Shown here piece by piece: positions 1,963 to 20,715 of a DNA stretch of 64,000 bases. Source of the DNA: Periplaneta americana (lineage: Eukaryota > Arthropoda > Insecta > Blattodea > Blattidae); contig NC_091117.1 of NCBI RefSeq assembly GCF_040183065.1, forward strand, positions 100,195,001 to 100,259,000. Reading direction: 5' to 3'. The position numbers and the translations under genes were made by a program. The first letter of the stretch is position 1, and each line of letters starts with the position of its first letter. A model generated the notes under the pieces. It did no database searches, had not been told where the DNA came from, and saw only the letters and a list, made by a program, of their open reading frames with translations.

Positions 1963-3017
1963 ATAAAATTAGGCCTACATTTTCTGAGTTAATTGAAGTT
2001 ACAATTTTTTTCAACAATGTTGTGTATTCATTTGTTCTCGCCTACGTCATAATAACAGTAAGTGCATATAAATTACATATTATATAGGTAGGGTAAGTTA
2101 AAATTAAGCTTATGTGTGAAAACTGGAAATGTAATGTAAAATGCGGTAAACTTGCCATAAAAATTTAAACCATAATATCAGCACTATTAGCGACTCAAAA
2201 TAATAATAAAAAAAATTGAAAAATAATGTACTTCATAAATCAATGTCTGTCAAAATAAGGTTTAAATCTTCCCCTTTTTTATTTTTAAGTTTACCTCAGC
2301 GGCCGAGTTTACCCCAATTTTCGGTATGGAAAATAGTTAATTTCTCAGGAAATAGGGAGAGGAGTTCACCACGCGATGTACCCTACGAGATATGCCCTAC
2401 AATTTTGACTCTTCTCACAGGAAATATAGAGTTCCAATGGTTTATAAATATATTTAGGAATGAATTGAATTAACCGTCCACGTACAAACAATTATATTAT
2501 TTCAAACCATGATACGTGATCAGGGCCATGATTCAGTTGTAAGGAGCAGAAAGAATTACGTTTATTCCCAGCTTCTGAAACTTGTAGATTAACTGCGTGT
2601 GAAATTCTTCCAGCATTCTAAAGTAGAATTAGTAAGAACCATATACACTTATTGTATAGCATAAAAATATAAAATAAATTACGCAAAACCCGTTTTCTGA
2701 TGTGTTATCATATTGTATATTTTATTTAGTAACAACAATGTAATTTATTCGTCACAACAATAATTGCTTTCTACAATTCACCTTAAACGCTCTCGTCAAC
2801 AATTGGATCTTCACTCACACAGTATTCGTTATAGCACTCCACCGACGACAATGACAATTGACTTGGACTATTACGCACAACAATGAACTGTTAATCTTAA
2901 CTAATATTTACAAAGCACTATTTACAAATCAGAACTACCAGTTCTCAGTTCACAGTTCTTCTATCTCAGTCACTCGAGTTCACAGTATCTCGAACCACAG
3001 ACCTTCAGAGACAGTTC

Positions 3018-3112
3018 ACTGTACTCGAACTCGGGTCCCTCCAACTGCGGCCCACTGCACTCGAACTCAGGTCCCTCCAACTGCGGTCCACTGCACTCGA
3101 ACTCAGGCCTTC
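3018..3112. repeat. 36-bp tandem repeat inside the LTR
   Basis: About two and a half copies of a unit beginning CACTGCACTCGAACTCAGGT. The same array occurs in the other LTR (around 6318-6412) and, decayed and reversed, in the LTR relic near 20330-20420, so it is an old feature of the LTR family. On the element's own strand it lies downstream of the TATA box. Confidence 0.75.
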
Positions 3113-3240
3113 GGATGCTGACGCAGATGCGGACGCACACTCGAGTCGAACTCCGGTACACAAGACTGGCTTCCTTGCTCTGGCTTTCTCACTGACTGAA
3201 TAACTGAAAACTCAGAAACTCTAGTTCGCTGGCGCCTGCT

Positions 3241-3248
3241 CTTTTATA
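3241..3248 (-). promoter_or_regulatory. TATA box in the 3' LTR
   Basis: TATAAAAG on the minus strand, about 265 bp from the LTR start, followed by GC-rich DNA. The identical box in the 5' LTR is the functional promoter position; this copy could drive reading into flanking DNA. Confidence 0.55.
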
Positions 3249-3513
3249 GCAAAATCATAGTTGCGAGAACCTTCTACAGTTGTGTAGAGAATTATCTCGA
3301 TATCTCTACATCGACAGACTCCTGGAATAGTCGAGAAGGTCGTTCCACATTCACTGCGTTAAGTAGCAGCTGCGCGCAGACTCGTTGCGTTGACGTAATA
3401 CACCCTCTCTCTTCTCTCCACCGCGCGATGTCACTCAATGTTCCGTGGAGCCTGTGCGATCTGCTTTCATGCGGGACGCTGGTCGTGAGTTAGAATCTCA
3501 CGTCGCTGTCACA

Positions 3514-3530
3514 TTGCTCCCTCCTTAGGA
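3514..3530 (-). other. Polypurine tract for plus-strand priming
   Basis: On the minus strand the sequence AAGGAGGGAGCAA directly abuts the TG of the 3' LTR, the expected place and composition for the plus-strand primer. A near-copy of the same block (AAGGAGGGAGCA) occurs about 80 bp away at 3596-3607, beginning at the gag-protease stop codon. This short duplication could mark the junction where pol was lost. Confidence 0.75.
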
Positions 3531-3603
3531 CTGCTCGTCTCGGGCAGTCCCTTGGTAGGCTGCTAGTCGGTCCAACGTTTGGGGTCCTCCGGCTGCTCCC
3601 TCC

Positions 3604-5985
3604 TTATGGTGGCGCCACCCCATCCTTGGCTTGGCTGGGCAGCGATACTCGTACTGCGTGGGCGCCATCTTGCTCTTCCCCTTGGCCCTCCAAGGAGAGC
3701 TCGCTGGCCACGGGTTGGTCCTCGGCGTCCATCAGGAACACTTCATCCCGACCAAGACGGAGTATACGGCGCCGGACGTCCACCGTCGCATCGAGTAACC
3801 GCATGGCGTCGAGTCCCAGGACGACGTCCTCGGTGATGTTGGCGACGAACACCCACATCTCCAGTTTCCTCTTCCGCAAGGTCAGGTCCAGGAATACCTC
3901 TCTCTGGATGGGCAAGCTCTCGCCTGAAGCAGTACGTAGCTCGTATTGGCGCAGCGGCGTCCTCCCAGGTAGGCCACGCACGACGTCTGGTCTGGCGATA
4001 GTGAGCATCGCCCCGGTGTCCACCAGTACTCTGCATGGACGGCCTCTTATCCGTCCTTCGGCAATCAGCCCATCGTCGCATCTTCTGTCGACCGGTTTCA
4101 GGACGAGCCGAGGGGACGGTGATGATGGCGCCGACGTGCTCCTCCGAGCATCGGCCCCCTCTCTCTCCTGACTGTTGCCAGGTCGGTCGCAACTCCTCCG
4201 CAGGTGCCCAGGTTCACCGCAGGACCAGCAGGTGGGCACCCGTCGTCTCCGTTGCTCAGGCGACTGTTGGTTTCTCTCGGTGTCAGCCACCTCTCTCTCC
4301 TGCCGGTGGCTGGAGCGGTTGCAGTCCCTCCTTAGGTGTCCCGGTCTCCCGCAGGACCAGCAGTTGGGCGTCCGTCGTCTCCGCTGCTCTGTCGACTGTT
4401 GGCGCTCCTCGACGTCGGCCACCTCTCTCTCCTGCCTGTGACCGGATCGGTCACAGTCCCTTCTCAGGTGTCCCGGTCTGCCGCAGGACCAGCAGGTGGG
4501 CGCCCGTCGTCTCCGCCGCTCCGTTGACTGCTGGCGCTCCTCGACGTAGGCCACCTCTCTCTCCTGCCTGTGGCCGGATTGGTCACAGTCCCTTCTCAAG
4601 TGTCCCGGTTTGCCACAGGACCAGCAGGTGGGCGCCCGTCGTTTCCGCCGCTCCGTTGACTGCTGGCGCTCCTCGACGTCGGCCACCTCTCTCTCCTGCC
4701 TGTGGCCGGATTGGTCACAGTCCCTTCTCAAGTGTCCCGGTTTGCCACAGGACCAGCAGGTGGGCGCCCGTCGTCTCCGCCGCTCCGTTGACTGCCGCTC
4801 GGGTGGCTTCGGTTGGCGCCCCCCAGCATCCGTCGCCGTGACGCTCCTGATCCAGTGCGGTGTTGAGACTCCCGCCGCCGACTTGGCCGCCTCCATCCTG
4901 AGGGCCGCCGCCAGAGCTGCGTTGATGGTACGATGCTCTGCCAGGAGTAGCTGTTGTCTTATTTCCGGGTCTCGAACTCCGCTGCCGAAGGTGTAGGCCG
5001 CCTCTCCAGCGATGAAGTCATTAGGTAGGCCCCTGAGCGCCTTATGGGCCAGTTGTTCCACCGCCATCGCGAATTCTTGCAGGGACTCGCCTGACTGTTG
5101 GACCCTCGTTTTCAGTTGGGTCCTGAACGCTGCCGCAAGTTGATGGTCACCATAACGTCCCTCCAAGGCCGCCATTATCTCAGCGGCTGTCCCATCTTCT
5201 GGAACGCTGTGAAGAATCTCCGACGCCTGTCCCTGAAGCGCGGCCAGCAGCTGAGTAGTTTTCTCTGCTGGCGTCCACCCATTGTGCTCTGCGATGGCCT
5301 CGAACTGGCGACGGAATATCGCCCAAGACGTCGTACCGTCGAACTTCGGCGTCTTGACGTTGTGATGTCTGGCTGAAGCCGATGGTTCCGCAGGGGCACT
5401 ATATGGAGTCCTCAACCTTGTGGCCGCTTCTTGCATGGCACGTCGAACCTCCTCGGCAACTATCTGTTTATGTTCTCTAGCCTGGCGATCCACCAACGCG
5501 AGGATGTGCTTGTTTTCTTCAGCATGTTTTTCCATCACCTCACTCGTCTTGTCCAGCAATTCGCTCGTCTGCTCTTGACGGCGCTCGAGATCGCGGATTT
5601 TGGCGTCGAAATGGTCTACCTCCTGCCTCAATTCGGTTACTGCCTCGTTTATAGTTGTAAAATTCTTGTTTAGGTTGTCAAGGTCGGCTTTGAGTTCGTC
5701 TTTCACGATGGCGACAATTCCATCTACGTGGGCTGAAACGCTTTCAATTTGCGTAGTGACGTCATCTTTCACTCCGCTTATGTCGCCTTTCACTCCGCTT
5801 ATGTCACTTTTCATCTCCGTTTTCACTTCACTTATGTCACTTTTCATCTCCGTTTTCCCATCACTTATGTCGTTCTTAACCTCACTGATGTGCTTGTTCA
5901 TGTTATCTTTTACTTCACTAATGTGCATGTTCATTTCTGCTTTCATTTCTGCGATGGCTTGCAGGATCTGCTGTAGGTTCTCCAT
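3604..5985 (-). CDS. Gag-protease polyprotein with five zinc knuckles
   Basis: Single open frame of 793 residues if started at the ATG at 5985. The frame stays open upstream to 6039, but that part overlaps the primer-binding site and LTR, so the MENLQQ start is preferred. Residues of about 10-100 are a charged repeat region (KTEMKSDIS-type units) that probably forms coiled coil. A retrotransposon Gag core follows at about 210-380. Five tandem CCHC knuckles (C-x2-C-x4-H-x4-C, CWSCG..GHLRR.C) lie at about 405-600, and a retropepsin with LVDTGA near residue 653 and VVLGLD further on lies at the C-terminus. The frame is GC- and CpG-rich against AT-rich surroundings. It should form particles, bind RNA and cleave itself. 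No pol frame follows. Confidence 0.88.
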   Translation of the reverse strand: MENLQQILQAIAEMKAEMNMHISEVKDNMNKHISEVKNDISDGKTEMKSDISEVKTEMKSDISGVKGDISGVKDDVTTQIESVSAHVDGIVAIVKDELKADLDNLNKNFTTINEAVTELRQEVDHFDAKIRDLERRQEQTSELLDKTSEVMEKHAEENKHILALVDRQAREHKQIVAEEVRRAMQEAATRLRTPYSAPAEPSASARHHNVKTPKFDGTTSWAIFRRQFEAIAEHNGWTPAEKTTQLLAALQGQASEILHSVPEDGTAAEIMAALEGRYGDHQLAAAFRTQLKTRVQQSGESLQEFAMAVEQLAHKALRGLPNDFIAGEAAYTFGSGVRDPEIRQQLLLAEHRTINAALAAALRMEAAKSAAGVSTPHWIRSVTATDAGGRQPKPPERQSTERRRRRAPTCWSCGKPGHLRRDCDQSGHRQEREVADVEERQQSTERRKRRAPTCWSCGKPGHLRRDCDQSGHRQEREVAYVEERQQSTERRRRRAPTCWSCGRPGHLRRDCDRSGHRQEREVADVEERQQSTEQRRRRTPNCWSCGRPGHLRRDCNRSSHRQEREVADTERNQQSPEQRRRRVPTCWSCGEPGHLRRSCDRPGNSQEREGADARRSTSAPSSPSPRLVLKPVDRRCDDGLIAEGRIRGRPCRVLVDTGAMLTIARPDVVRGLPGRTPLRQYELRTASGESLPIQREVFLDLTLRKRKLEMWVFVANITEDVVLGLDAMRLLDATVDVRRRILRLGRDEVFLMDAEDQPVASELSLEGQGEEQDGAHAVRVSLPSQAKDGVAPP
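4170..4800 (-). repeat. 132-bp tandem repeat encoding zinc knuckles
   Basis: Five units spaced 132 bp apart (GCAGGACCAGCAG recurs near 4221, 4353, 4485, 4617 and 4749 on the plus strand). Each encodes 44 residues, made of one CCHC knuckle and an arginine/glutamate-rich linker. The unit nearest the protease is the most divergent. The two nearest the Gag core are almost identical at DNA level, which points to recent unit duplication. Confidence 0.88.
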
Positions 5986-5995
5986 TGTCGATAAT

Positions 5996-6013
5996 GTCCC
6001 GATTCTGACACCA
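5996..6013 (-). other. tRNA primer-binding site, leucine-type
   Basis: One base inside the 5' LTR the minus strand reads TGGTGTCAGAATCGGGAC, starting with TGG to pair with a tRNA CCA tail. The pairing sequence ...TCTGACACCA resembles animal leucyl-tRNA 3' ends. The tRNA identity is from memory of tRNA sequences and not checked. Confidence 0.7.
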
Positions 6014-6014
6014 G

Positions 6015-6814
6015 TGTAAATTTTATTTAGTAACAACAATGTAATTTATTCGTCACAACAATAATTGCTTTCTACAATTCACCTTAAACGCTCTCGTCAA
6101 CAATTGGATCTTCACTCACACAGTATTCGTTATAGCACTCCACCGACGACAATGACAATTGACTTGGACTATTACGCACAACAATGAACTGTTAATCTTA
6201 ACTAATATTTACAAAGCACTATTTACAAATCAGAACTACCAGTTCTCAGTTCACAGTTCTTCTATCTCAGTCACTCGAGTTCACAGTATCTCGAACCACA
6301 GACCTTCAGAGACAGTTCACTGTACTCGAACTCGGGTCCCTCCAACTGCGGCCCACTGCACTCGAACTCAGGTCCCTCCAACTGCGGTCCACTGCACTCG
6401 AACTCAGGCCTTCGGATGCTGACGCAGATGCGGACGCACACTCGAGTCGAACTCCGGTACACAAGACTGGCTTCCTTGCTCTGGCTTTCTCACTGACTGA
6501 ATAACTGAAAACTCAGAAACTCTAGTTCGCTGGCGCCTGCTCTTTTATAGCAAAATCATAGTTGCGAGAACCTTCTACAGTTGTGTAGAGAATTATCTCG
6601 ATATCTCTACATCGACAGACTCCTGGAATAGTCGAGAAGGTCGTTCCACATTCACTGCGTTAAGTAGCAGCTGCGCGCAGACTCGTTGCGTTGACGTAAT
6701 ACACCCTCTCTCTTCTCTCCACCGCGCGACGTCACTCAATGTTCCGTGGAGCCTGTGCGATCTGCTTTCATGCGGGACGCTGGTCGTGAGTTCGAATCTC
6801 ACGTCGCTGTCACA
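6015..6814 (-). repeat. 5' LTR of the retrotransposon
   Basis: 800 bp, TG/CA bounded, holding the promoter for the Gag-protease transcript. Its plus-strand AATTTTATTTAG end gives AATAAA on the element strand near the LTR 3' border, a possible polyadenylation signal. Confidence 0.93.
6542..6549 (-). promoter_or_regulatory. TATA box of the 5' LTR
   Basis: TATAAAAG on the minus strand, 265 bp into the LTR. This is the best candidate core promoter for the gag-protease transcript. Confidence 0.6.
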
Positions 6815-6931
6815 ATATGTAGTGTGCACACTTTTAACTTGCCTGCCGCTAGAGGGCTACTGTCGCGCCAGCTGTCAAATGTTGGCATATTTTATACGTA
6901 TGAGTTGCGTGACTGTATCTATTAGACTGTG

Positions 6932-9900
6932 CTGGCGCATAGCACGATCGAGAGTCTATTTATTTGTCTATGATCGAGAGTATGTCTCTGTGAGTCATGA
7001 CAATTTCTGTCGCTAGGTTCGCCTCCCTGCCCTATGAAATGATGAATAGTATCATTACAAAGCATTGTGCATAGTGAAAATAATTCGATTAATTGTGCAT
7101 TACTCATTGAGTACGAATATTACAAATATGCCAAGCACATTACAGTGTTATTTGAAGTTTGTTCAGCTAAGTTATATTCGAAAATTGTCTGTGTTTTGCT
7201 ATGTGAAGAACTCTGTACCAACAGGTCGTATCTTTATAGGTTAAGGTAAATGTCAAAGTTCTCTCATATAACAAGCAATGCTATGTTAAAAGTGGCGAAT
7301 TGCATTTTCCGACTCTCGAATGATGTGACCCGAAATGTAAAATAATTTCATGCATTGTTTCACTTACCAGGCATTACTGATAAAGGCCTAATGAAAATGT
7401 GAACGACGTGATGTAAACATTGAAGATAATGTTGTTACTGTTTTCCCTTTCTCTTTTAGAAAATACCGACAAAAGTAATGAAATATCTTCATGCTGTACT
7501 TATTAGGTAATTAATGTATATTTGTCTGTATTTTAGACGTGTGTATTGTTACGTAATTATCAGTGAATTAGGTTAGAGAACTTAACAAGGTTAGTATGAG
7601 ATTAGGTAATGCACCTCAAACTGGTAACTAATAATGGCTGCTGCGAAATAGGCTGAGGTGGTTATCGTGTGAATCAAATTATATCTAGAATATCTAGTTT
7701 TATTATATACGGATACGTAAAGTTTTTTTTGTTTGTTTTAGCATGTGTTTGTAATTTTGTGAGGTTATGTCTAGCCTAATTTATTTTTATTCTTGTATCA
7801 TTACCAATACATTAATTTATTTTATATTCATTTCAGGTGTTACGGAGGTGTTACATCTATGGTGGCAACTCTACTTATGTTAGGATATGAAGCAACAGTA
7901 TATATTCAATTTCATCATTTGCTAAAAATTAAAGAAAACTGTATGTCTTCGACTCATTCCATCGTCATTTCTTCTTATGTATGTGAACCACGTTCATTCT
8001 AAAAGTGCTACATTAAATGAACACTATAGACAACGTGATGGAACAATTTACAAGTTACTGTTAAAGTGCTCAAAATTTTCAAGTGGTGCTATACCCATTG
8101 TTTCAAAATGTACATACATATTTTTACATTTCTATAAGAGGTGTCATAAATTATTTCAGCATATTTGTAAATTCTTCAAAATTAATTCTTCTAATTAATA
8201 CCATAAAGTAATGAAATAATATAGCCTAGGCCTATATGTGATTTTATACTACCGGTATTGATGTTGATCTTGGTAAATTAATCCAATTTCACAGTGTTGT
8301 CTTTTGTATTGTGGTTCATAACAATTATAACAGTATGTACGTGGAAATGTTTTTAAAATAATAAATTCTAGCTCATGATTTTAAGTGGTCGTTTCAATGG
8401 GACGTTATATTGGAAAGGTGATCACAAATGGATAATTTACTGCAAGATACAAGAACTGAATATAAATGAGTGTTCCATTGAAAGTGAAAGTGAAAATTTC
8501 GTTTTACAAGAGCTAAGTAGGCATAATATTTATTTTAGAAATTATTTGAAAACTACAGAATATGAAGAATATACCTGTAACCATAGAAATCAACTGCGAA
8601 TGGTGAGTGGCCAGGTTTCATTAATAATTGAAAGGAAGTAAAAATTATTTTCTTCTTATCATCCTGTTTTCAATATTTAAATTTAAGCACCTTTCTCTTC
8701 CTTGTTATTTCGTGAGAGATTACTTCATACTACCACATAAGTTAAGCTAAATCTTTTCTGTACAGATAATAAAAATTACATACATAAGTAGGCTACTTGA
8801 ATACTGACGATACAAACTTCATATACATACCTCATCAGGTATATTCAAGAAGACATCTAATGTACTGTAACCAGCACATGATTAAAATACTGATCAGATG
8901 TCCAACAGTTTCTTACTGCACTCTTCACTTCAAAAGTTTGGCACATAGTTAACGAAAATCTTGATCAGGAAATCATTCATAAAAAAGTTAAATGTACACG
9001 TTTAAAACTTTCCTATAACATAGGGCATCCTCATTGTTACTTTTAAGTTTTAGGAATGTACGCTTATAACTGTATCAAAATCTGAAATAATCATAATACA
9101 GTATTTATAACACGAGGGTCCTTGTAGATAGTCAGTTCCAGTGTTCTATATGTAATTAAGAAATGGCCCAGTTTATTGCACTTTCAGCACTTTTCTATTT
9201 AGGGGCTTCTGATTAAGTTTCCTAATCACTTCGTATTTACTGGAAATATCTTTGGCAATATTGTCCAGTAGTGGCTTCACAAGTTTTCCCAAAAGAAAGA
9301 GGGACATTTCCTCATCTTTACATGTGTCGCACTTCAGTTCTTGCGAAAATCTTGGCTTCAGAAAAGAATACTACAGCGTTTACTATTACTATGCTCAATA
9401 GATTAATCAGTAGGCCTATAGAAATGTTTTCACCACTGCAAGAAAAAATCGCGTAATAATTATACTTCTCAATTATTGTGACGTTCGTATTTTTTTTAAA
9501 AGAGAGGGAAAAGTTACGCCTTCTTGCAAATGCTTAATTATGAATTCTAGGAAATTAAAGATAATGCAGTACCTTAATTAGTTGCAATATCTTATTTAAT
9601 AACAATATTAATAATATTAGGTGAAAAGGGTAGGCTATAGTGCGTATATGTAAGATGTGAAGTTAATTTATTTCCGGAAATGTTTGGTGTACGAACTGAA
9701 GTACAGAGCAGACAGTCCCTCAGTTTATATGTAATATGTTTTAATATCAAGAATGACATCCTTTTATTGTAATATAATTGAGGAGTTGACGTTTGCAAAT
9801 TACGTCTATTGTCCATAAAATATTGTACGAAGCATTTAATAAGCAATGGTGAGTCCTTTAAATGCCCCAAATGTCAATGTCTTTTAAGTGTTCTGCTATG

Positions 9901-18938: not shown

Positions 18939-20267
18939 CACAGTCTACTATATACAGTCGCGAAGCTCAATATGTAGTAAATATGCAAACATGGGTAGTT
19001 GCCCACCACTAGGATAGCTACTATCGCGTCATCATCGCAGATCTCTCTCCTAGCAGCCGACAAAATATGTTACACTTTCGTTGTCGTGTTCTTTTGGAAA
19101 AATTAACACCTTCCTTCCATTATTGAAATATTAAATGCATAAAGTTAATTTATTATTTTAATGAAGTATATTAAATTCCACCATAAATTCGAAGATACCT
19201 GCAAGAAATAAGTTAATATAATTTTTGTTTGTGCAAAACGAACTGAAATTACTATAATAGTTTCACTCATTCAAGATTATAGCGATAATTAACTATGAAA
19301 CCAATAAATATTGATTTGCATTTCTCTTTACAACAATAATAATGGAAATATGAATTAATGGAGTAACTTACGTGTACCGGTACTTGTAGTGTAGGCTTAC
19401 GTAGTTAACAAAGTGGGATGAGGTTAAGCAATAATAATCACACCAGAATTGGAAATAAAACGTGATCAATAAATTTTATTGTAACAGACTTTTTCTACGT
19501 CTCTAGTAAAGCAACAAATAAAAATAACAACAAAATTAACAGCTATAATTAAAAACATATCCTTTGAAGAAAAAAGTAGGCCTAAGCAATAATAATCCCA
19601 CCAGAATTGAAAAGAAAACGTGATCAATAAATTTCATTAAGACAAACTTAATTTTTCTACGTCTTTAGTAAAATAACACATTAAAATAATAACAAAATTA
19701 ATAGCTACAATTAAAAATATATCCTCTGAAGAAAAAAGTAGACCTAACCTTTATTTCTCTGGAAATTTAGCAGCCTAAGTGACAGAACTTTAACCGGTAT
19801 CTAATGTCCTTTCGGTTAGACTGAAACATTTCATTGTGAAATTTAAGGATATAATGTATTCTAACAGTCACAAAGAACTTCAAATTAACAGTTTTGTTTC
19901 TGCACAGCATTCTTGTGGAAACCCAGGAACCTTTCTGAATCTTTCGGAAATCGGGAAAAGGATAACTCTGGCCTCTTTCTCTTACTCTTGCTACAATTTA
20001 TAGCACTACAAACGTCTCCTCCTTGTCCCATATTATTATTCCAATTATTATATTTTAGCCATTAACATTTTCATTATAACCAATAACGAACATTTCACAA
20101 CCATCAATGTGAAATACGCAACGAGCTAGCACTCGATAGAAATACGATACAGTCCAAAGTCGACCATGGACAGTCTATTGTTTCTAGTTGCTAACCGCTT
20201 GGAGCGCTTTATCACGAGATTTGCAAAAAAACACCTCAATCTTCGCGACTGTATATAGTAGACTGTG
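18939..20267. mobile_element. TIR transposon inserted in the LTR relic
   Basis: Perfect 27-bp inverted ends (CACAGTCTACTATATACAGT plus CGCGAAG). ACTTGAG flanks both sides (18932-18938 and 20268-20274), a 7-bp duplication, or 8 bp if the terminal G is counted in the target. The ends match the element at 924/6931. The 1329-bp body is AT-rich with a tandem duplication and no transposase, so it is non-autonomous. The superfamily is not assigned. Confidence 0.87.
19424..19745. repeat. 160-bp tandem duplication
   Basis: Two adjacent copies share AAGCAATAATAATC.CACCAGAATTG, AACGTGATCAATAAATTT, TTTTTCTACGTCT and GAAGAAAAAAGTAG in the same order. They lie inside the TIR transposon and do not code. 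Confidence 0.82.
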
Positions 20268-20715
20268 ACTTGAGTGTGTCCGCAGCTGTGTGAGCATCCT
20301 GGCCAGTGGACTGTCGCCGGAAGTCCGGAGTTCGAGTGCAGTGGACCGCAGTTGGGGGACCTGAGTTCGAAGTTCAGTGAACTGTCTCTGAAGGTCTGGG
20401 ATTCGAGATACTGTGAACTCGAGTGACTGCGCTAGAGGAACTAAGCCGAGGCAAACGAACTGTGAACTGAGAACTGACAGCTCTGCTTTGTAAATAGTGC
20501 TTTGTGAACATTAGTTAAGATTAACAGTTCATTGTTGTTCTCAATAATCCAAGTAAATTGTCATTGTCGTCTGTGGAGTACAATAACGAATACTGTGTTA
20601 CTGTGTGGAGTGGAAATCCCATTGTTGACGGGAGTGTTTACATTCAATAATAGAAAGTGATTATTGTTGTTTGAAGTAAAAGTTACACTATTGTTTCTTC
20701 TGCTATTGTCTGTAT

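Follow-up and report, generated by a model that had tools for sequence, protein, structure and literature searches.

In the cockroach Periplaneta americana we describe a multi-copy family of long terminal repeat (LTR) retrotransposons that retain a Gag-protease frame and lack the rest of pol, and we propose that this Ty3/Gypsy family is probably semi-autonomous, supplying its own Gag-protease and borrowing the pol of a sister family in the same genome. The copy studied here is a whole element at 2714-6814 on the minus strand of a 64,000-nucleotide stretch (the window; contig NC_091117.1, positions 100,195,001 to 100,259,000, assembly GCF_040183065.1). The initial annotation, made from the letters of the window alone, had suggested a non-autonomous pol-less lineage, and both the multi-copy structure and a pol-bearing sister family were found, in agreement with this suggestion.

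The cockroach's own genome (3.23 Gb, 91 contigs) was searched with the part of the window copy that runs from the protease over the junctions left by the loss of pol to the remnant of the integrase tail, and the best 40 of 2491 candidates were scored. All 40, which lie at separate places and include the window copy, cover both junctions at 98-100% identity, and both junctions are likewise present in each of the 30 copies that were cut out (window included). A 35-base pattern over the second junction had 251 matches with up to two mismatches, and its reversed control had none. Among 20 other copies examined over their whole length, 18 have a pair of LTRs; 16 of these are flanked by a target duplication of 4-6 bp, and the duplication is ATAT in 10 of the 16. 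A recent origin had been claimed for the window copy; its LTRs are 99.6% identical, with mismatches at 2718/6019, 3429/6730 and 3492/6793, and the aligned LTRs are identical in 7 of the other 18 copies with an LTR pair, which agrees with that claim. The Gag-protease frame is whole in 12 of the 20 other copies (13/21 with the window), and, of the features by which a semi-autonomous element is recognised, an intact gag-protease frame, the lack of reverse transcriptase (RT) and integrase and the presence of many copies are found here. The initial annotation had considered that every other copy might carry pol, which is not the case, as copies of the same pol-less structure are many.

The window copy encodes a single stop-free frame of 793 residues (Table 1). 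In Pfam it matches the zinc knuckle five times (PF00098, 2.4e-27), an aspartic protease (PF13650, 3.6e-6) and, weakly, PNMA and Retrotrans_gag; the 25 families listed, out of 34 matched, include none of RT, RNase H or integrase. Frame and Pfam matches agree with the earlier assignment as a Gag-protease without these enzymes. TRIM and LARD elements are pol-less LTR elements that are mobilised in trans and have no coding capacity, TRIM elements being reported from ants and bivalves too; the present element is like them in lacking pol and, as the annotation had also stated, differs from these silent forms in its 793-residue frame.

Pol is absent from the interval 3531-3604, where the annotation had placed its loss, but a single deletion does not account for this. 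Relative to a pol-bearing copy, L052, two segments are missing, one of about 1.7 kb (RT-RNase H) and one of about 1.2 kb (integrase), and a remnant of pol stands after each; L052 is not the direct parent of the pol-less form, and the boundary of the first junction is blurred. The 62 bp that precede the 3′ LTR are the end of a Gypsy integrase, read in a different frame.

The related pol-bearing family that the annotation had expected beside a non-autonomous lineage was also found. A pattern for the integrase tail without the junction requirement gave 645 matches (330 + 315; control 0), a count that forms no ratio with the 251 above, the two patterns being of different looseness. Upstream of the tail matches listed, nearly all share one sequence, unlike the pol-less junction. 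Twenty-two places of the pol-bearing type were read. A comparable gag-protease lies upstream in 17 and is absent from the retrieved sequence in four; the remaining one, L051, is internally deleted. L052 contains, interrupted in places, LTRs, gag, protease, RT, RNase H and integrase, and its pol domains in Pfam are RVT_1, RT_RNaseH, Integrase_H2C2, rve and Integrase_p58_C. These follow the Ty3/Gypsy order of protease, RT, RNase H and integrase, of which the pol-less element retains just the protease and remnants of pol. No env was found in L052, where the integrase stop lies at the polypurine tract, directly before the LTR, and which is thus neither an errantivirus nor an endogenous retrovirus by structure. 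In L077, a piece of another pol-bearing copy, the RT-RNase H frame is open for 466 aa. The sister family shares its polypurine tract with the pol-less element, and two of its copies, L075 and L076, have matching LTRs. L051 looks like an independent deletion derivative: at 5733-8319 the N-terminal part of gag is joined straight to the end of integrase, and its LTRs are 87% identical. Owing to this internal deletion, L051 was excluded when the families were compared.

Judged from these sequences, the pol-less Gag is rebuilt relative to the sister Gag. Four to five zinc knuckles occur in all 13 whole pol-less frames (in L046, four by a looser motif and three by a stricter one), whereas each of the 17 sister gags whose motif is readable has a single knuckle (21 loci examined, four without such a motif). 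The sister gag stops 63-69 nt past its knuckle in all 15 copies scored of 20, and 14 of these 15, L052 being the exception, have the protease in the -1 frame. In the pol-less family, gag and protease share one frame in every copy scored (27 of 30); a stop separates knuckle and protease in two of these, and the path is open in 25. Copies unscored in this frame count were the pol-bearing L057, L060, L067, L071 and L072 and the pol-less L022, L030 and L043; L053 was not in the set. A pattern for a pol-less-type protease joined to undeleted pol had two matches, both sister-type with three mismatches, and so no pol-bearing form of this arrangement was found with it. The gag and protease frames of the pol-bearing copies overlap briefly (28 nt in 11 of the 15 scored), and L056, L059 and L064, the pol-bearing copies printed, show GAA AAC TAA where gag stops, a short way past the zinc knuckle, as would be expected of a -1 frameshift site.

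The two families have evidently not evolved apart along their whole length. They were compared over 27 pol-less and 17 pol-bearing copies with at least 75% coverage, L023, L040 and L043 being dropped from the 30 pol-less and L053, L060, L067 and L072 from the 21 pol-bearing copies for lower coverage. Over aa 193-342 of the capsid, the fixation index (Fst) is 0.05 overall (parts ~0 to 0.08), and 35 of 2000 label shuffles reached as high a value, so that differentiation is slight, not nil. It rises to 0.71 (parts 0.48 and 0.84) over aa 343-401 and to 0.80 (parts 0.71-0.87) in the protease, with 0/2000 shuffles as high in either; since the query used for the search included the protease, uniformity within the pol-less copies is partly a matter of sampling, which does not apply to the distance between families. 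We refer to this differentiated part as the 3′ cassette. Identical runs between families extend to 277 bp (235 between the window copy and L059), and of the 58 capsid variants found in at least two pol-less copies, 48 are present in the sister family too, leaving 10 private. Over 769 bp the LTR of L076 is 97.3% identical to that of the window copy, which is on a par with other pol-less copies, and in the LTR tree L075 and L076 fall among pol-less LTRs like the window's; L074 has no LTR row and no place in this tree. Template switching between co-packaged RNAs would be the simplest and best explanation of this exchange pattern, and would place pol-less RNA inside the particles of the sister; gene conversion in the genome is the alternative.

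Part of the evidence on selection favours a functional frame. Capsid variants shared by pol-less copies number 20 nonsynonymous to 38 synonymous, versus an expected 2.7:1 (ratio 0.19), and singletons 45 to 29 (ratio 0.57), a difference between shared and singleton variants with a Fisher p of 0.003. Among the five knuckle units of the window copy, the ratio of nonsynonymous to synonymous rates (dN/dS) is 0.09-0.47 in 9 of 10 pairs, those in which it is defined, and every CCHC residue is kept; in a neutral null for these units a stop was gained in 97% of runs and a CCHC residue changed in 99.5%. In-frame stops in the compared capsid or protease stretches are found in 0/27 pol-less versus 4/17 pol-bearing copies, a count that ignores frame-shifting gaps, some of which occur in L030 and L035, and from which L023, dropped for low capsid coverage and containing a stop, is missing. 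For the 3′ cassette itself, we regard the evidence of selection that these sequences offer as moderate.

Besides these limits of the stop count, several observations weigh against a semi-autonomous family with a functional Gag. Of 21 fully read copies, that of the window among them, eight lack the whole frame, and the choice of the best 40 of 2491 candidates by protease and junction similarity over-samples young, uniform copies. Purifying selection on the shared half of the capsid may have taken place in the sister family, because most of the shared variants occur there too, and those private to pol-less copies are few (2 nonsynonymous, 8 synonymous). In the protease, shared variants (8 to 7) and singletons (13 to 15) do not differ (p 0.75), and fixed differences of 18 to 14, versus 2.5:1 expected, carry little signal. 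Synonymous changes among the knuckle units are not unusual either (24/70, random mean 21.2). Two of the four pol-bearing LTRs placed in the tree lie elsewhere, L052 and L073 grouping with L043 and L051, and the tree of the 627-bp capsid region does not reject a single pol-less clade (approximately unbiased test, p-AU 0.076), two label changes being sufficient; this is because the last 60 codons of the region belong to the differentiated cassette. The partner, finally, is known from the interrupted L052 and the L077 piece and not from a fully intact copy.

With these points taken into account, we favour the following course of events. The pol-less transcript would yield a single Gag-protease polyprotein whose nucleocapsid is enlarged to four to five zinc knuckles, and pol-less RNA would be packaged with the sister's RNA and Gag-Pol in shared particles, where the sister's RT, RNase H and integrase would copy and insert it via the common polypurine tract and LTR ends and a primer site that is presumably common as well. 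Co-packaging is suggested because of the recombination pattern, borrowing of the enzymes because their genes are missing and the insertions recent, and a role for the element's own Gag because its frame has been retained and rebuilt. The pol-less Gag-protease may itself build or mature particles, a role that the in-frame fusion and the knuckle array would favour and against which the exchange of capsid sequence with the sister weighs. A more tentative and rather doubtful proposal is that the pol-less Gag is specialised for competition inside shared particles. The multiplied nucleocapsid array would then raise packaging of the element's own RNA, and a 1:1 in-frame protease would replace the frameshift-controlled protease of the host family. 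Such a natural, defective-interfering-like element would renew its LTR and capsid half from the host by recombination and thereby remain compatible with it. We consider it unlikely that pol-less RNA is a mere passenger, moved wholly by the sister's Gag and Pol, with an open frame that is a by-product of youth and gag import. The exchanged 5′ half of gag, the copies that have lost the whole frame and the little sign of constraint in private variants and protease changes would all suit a passenger, but the knuckle array, the protease and the in-frame fusion are unique to the pol-less lineage and not imported. Furthermore, the open path from knuckle to protease in 25/27 copies, the protease region free of stops in all 27 copies compared and the intact CCHC residues in all five window units, of which the neutral null nearly always changes one, speak against it.

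Other origins of the pol-less structure fare worse. Since copia makes a spliced gag-protease RNA, a retrocopy of such an mRNA could have yielded the same product without any deletion. This is very improbable here, as there are two separate deletions and GT...AG stands at neither of their boundary pairs in L052, for which reason splicing was rejected as their origin; the rejection is not final, given the indirect parentage of L052 and the blurred first boundary. The TGGAC on both sides of the second deletion fits template switching or microhomology repair instead. A one-off deletion of a single full-length copy would be in keeping with the existence of a pol-bearing relative and of another deleted form, L051, but is ruled out by the junctions found at separate places in all scored matches, in the pattern matches and in all cut-out copies, and its probability is practically nil. 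We give as little credit to a domesticated gag, that is, a host gene derived from a captured gag: a long open gag frame without pol would be expected of it, whereas the pattern points to hundreds of dispersed copies and most of the 20 read have LTR pairs and target duplications.

Elements that keep gag without pol have precedents. TR-GAG is the label for plant LTR elements that likewise have a GAG domain and no pol, and among insects the repeat CM-gag of Culex pipiens is said to hold a gag gene only. In wheat, RLG_Sabrina_SA encodes GAG and protease only, is termed 'semi-autonomous' and forms a complex with the autonomous RLG_Wilma, and its authors propose a functional protein contribution (PMC9744471). 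The cockroach family resembles it as an abundant Gypsy family with GAG and protease only and a separate autonomous partner, and differs from this plant element in having a sister so close that LTR and capsid sequence can be shared through recombination, and in a Gag with a multiplied knuckle array and in-frame protease (PMC9744471). RLG_Quinta of einkorn wheat is GAG-coding and pol-less beside the autonomous RLG_Cereba, and template-switching recombination has been proposed for this pair, which likewise combines an intact gag and no pol with LTR parts, primer site and polypurine tract features common to both partners; RLG_Quinta is, in difference, centromere-specific, and its gag is much more diverged from that of the partner (PMC11302176). 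Drosophila HeT-A is an animal element that codes for Gag and must obtain its reverse transcriptase from elsewhere, but is non-LTR and telomere-specific (PMC5537684). For Culex, non-autonomous LTR families that have no coding capacity are described in a survey in which CM-gag appears as a cited title (PMC3286476). Among the literature matches listed, which covered few subscription papers, we recognised no animal LTR family with gag and protease only and a partner. The description of the element as something not well known thus stands for animal LTR elements, within those matches, and does not hold for wheat, where Gypsy families of this kind with an autonomous partner are described (PMC9744471).

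What the cockroach offers is a young pol-less gag-protease family and a pol-bearing sister with common LTR and capsid sequence in one genome. This pair allows a direct test of the advantage that an element without pol draws from retaining Gag, with clean contrasts between one and four to five knuckles, an offset and a fused protease, and an exchanged 5′ half and an isolated 3′ cassette. If our interpretation is correct, it would extend the wheat-type partnership, with recombination keeping partner and dependant compatible.

Table 1 Features of the pol-less element and its flanks in window coordinates
Feature	Position	Strand	Remarks
Left target-site duplication, ATAT	2710..2713	.	Flanks 3′ LTR
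3′ LTR, 800 bp	2714..3513	-	TGTGAC...TACA in element sense; 3 mismatches to 5′ LTR
Integrase C-terminal tail remnant	3513..3574	-	Not in the Gag frame; matches L052 7451-7512 exactly over 62 bp
3′ polypurine tract, TAAGGAGGGAGCA	3515..3527	-	Also holds stop of integrase-tail frame
Junction 2, integrase loss (~1.2 kb relative to L052)	3570..3574	-	TGGAC on both sides; 251 pattern matches
RNase H-integrase linker remnant, 109 bp	3570..3678	-	83% to L052 6130-6238
Second exact polypurine-tract copy, TAAGGAGGGAGCA	3594..3606	-	Gives Gag-protease stop; matching pol place in L052 is 6203-6215
Gag-protease frame, single, 793 aa	3604..5985	-	ATG 5985-5983, TAA 3606-3604
Junction 1, RT and RNase H loss (~1.7 kb relative to L052)	3678..3688	-	Inside Gag-protease frame; 30/30 copies (window included)
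Protease region used for family comparison	3751..4110	-	aa 626-745; DTG at aa 656
Five 44-codon zinc-knuckle units	4126..4786	-	132-bp tandem repeat
Capsid region used for family comparison	4783..5409	-	aa 193-401; aa 193-342 common to pol-bearing family
Primer binding site, TGGTGTCAGAATCGGGAC	5996..6013	-	Probably tRNA-Leu-like
5′ LTR, 800 bp	6015..6814	-	3 mismatches to 3′ LTR
Right target-site duplication, ATAT	6815..6818	.	Flanks 5′ LTR

The cis-acting parts that the initial annotation had reported (LTRs, primer site, polypurine tract and target duplication) were all located, its coordinates proving exact, and with direct LTRs of the TG...CA type they identify the element as an LTR retrotransposon. 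The primer-site-like TGGTGTCAGAATCGGGA begins at 6013 (minus strand), one base off the inner edge of the 5′ LTR, and we take it to be tRNA-Leu-like; the purine tract TAAGGAGGGAGCAA (minus strand) ends at 3514 and abuts the 3′ LTR. ARAGORN found no tRNA in the window. Lentiviruses have a central polypurine tract, and a 13-base copy of the tract that stands inside pol in L052, before integrase, and is kept in 25 of the 26 pol-less copies scored (30 examined, window included) is a candidate for such a tract.

The LTRs of the pol-less copies L031-L050 comprise at least three U3 types that are strongly diverged and yet combined with the same 3′ cassette, as if LTRs had been swapped. Near the outer LTR end (6786-6802 and 3485-3501) lies a hairpin, GTGAG-TTCGAAT-CTCAC, that resembles a tRNA T-arm and is present in most printed LTR starts of both families; its fold energy is not unusual relative to shuffles (z -0.19 and -0.33). 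Rfam matches up to E 5 comprised a single long non-coding RNA family (E 2.4), far under the cut-off and taken as chance, and searches of a phage collection (tblastn) and of viral contigs gave no matches. Elsewhere in the window, at 20267-20698 on the opposite strand, there is a diverged relative of the element's LTR (80% identity over 375 bp), for which a matching internal region is absent from the window. A 49-bp inverted repeat at 1738-1961, with arms 94% complementary and 126 bp between them, is possibly a small inverted-repeat element.
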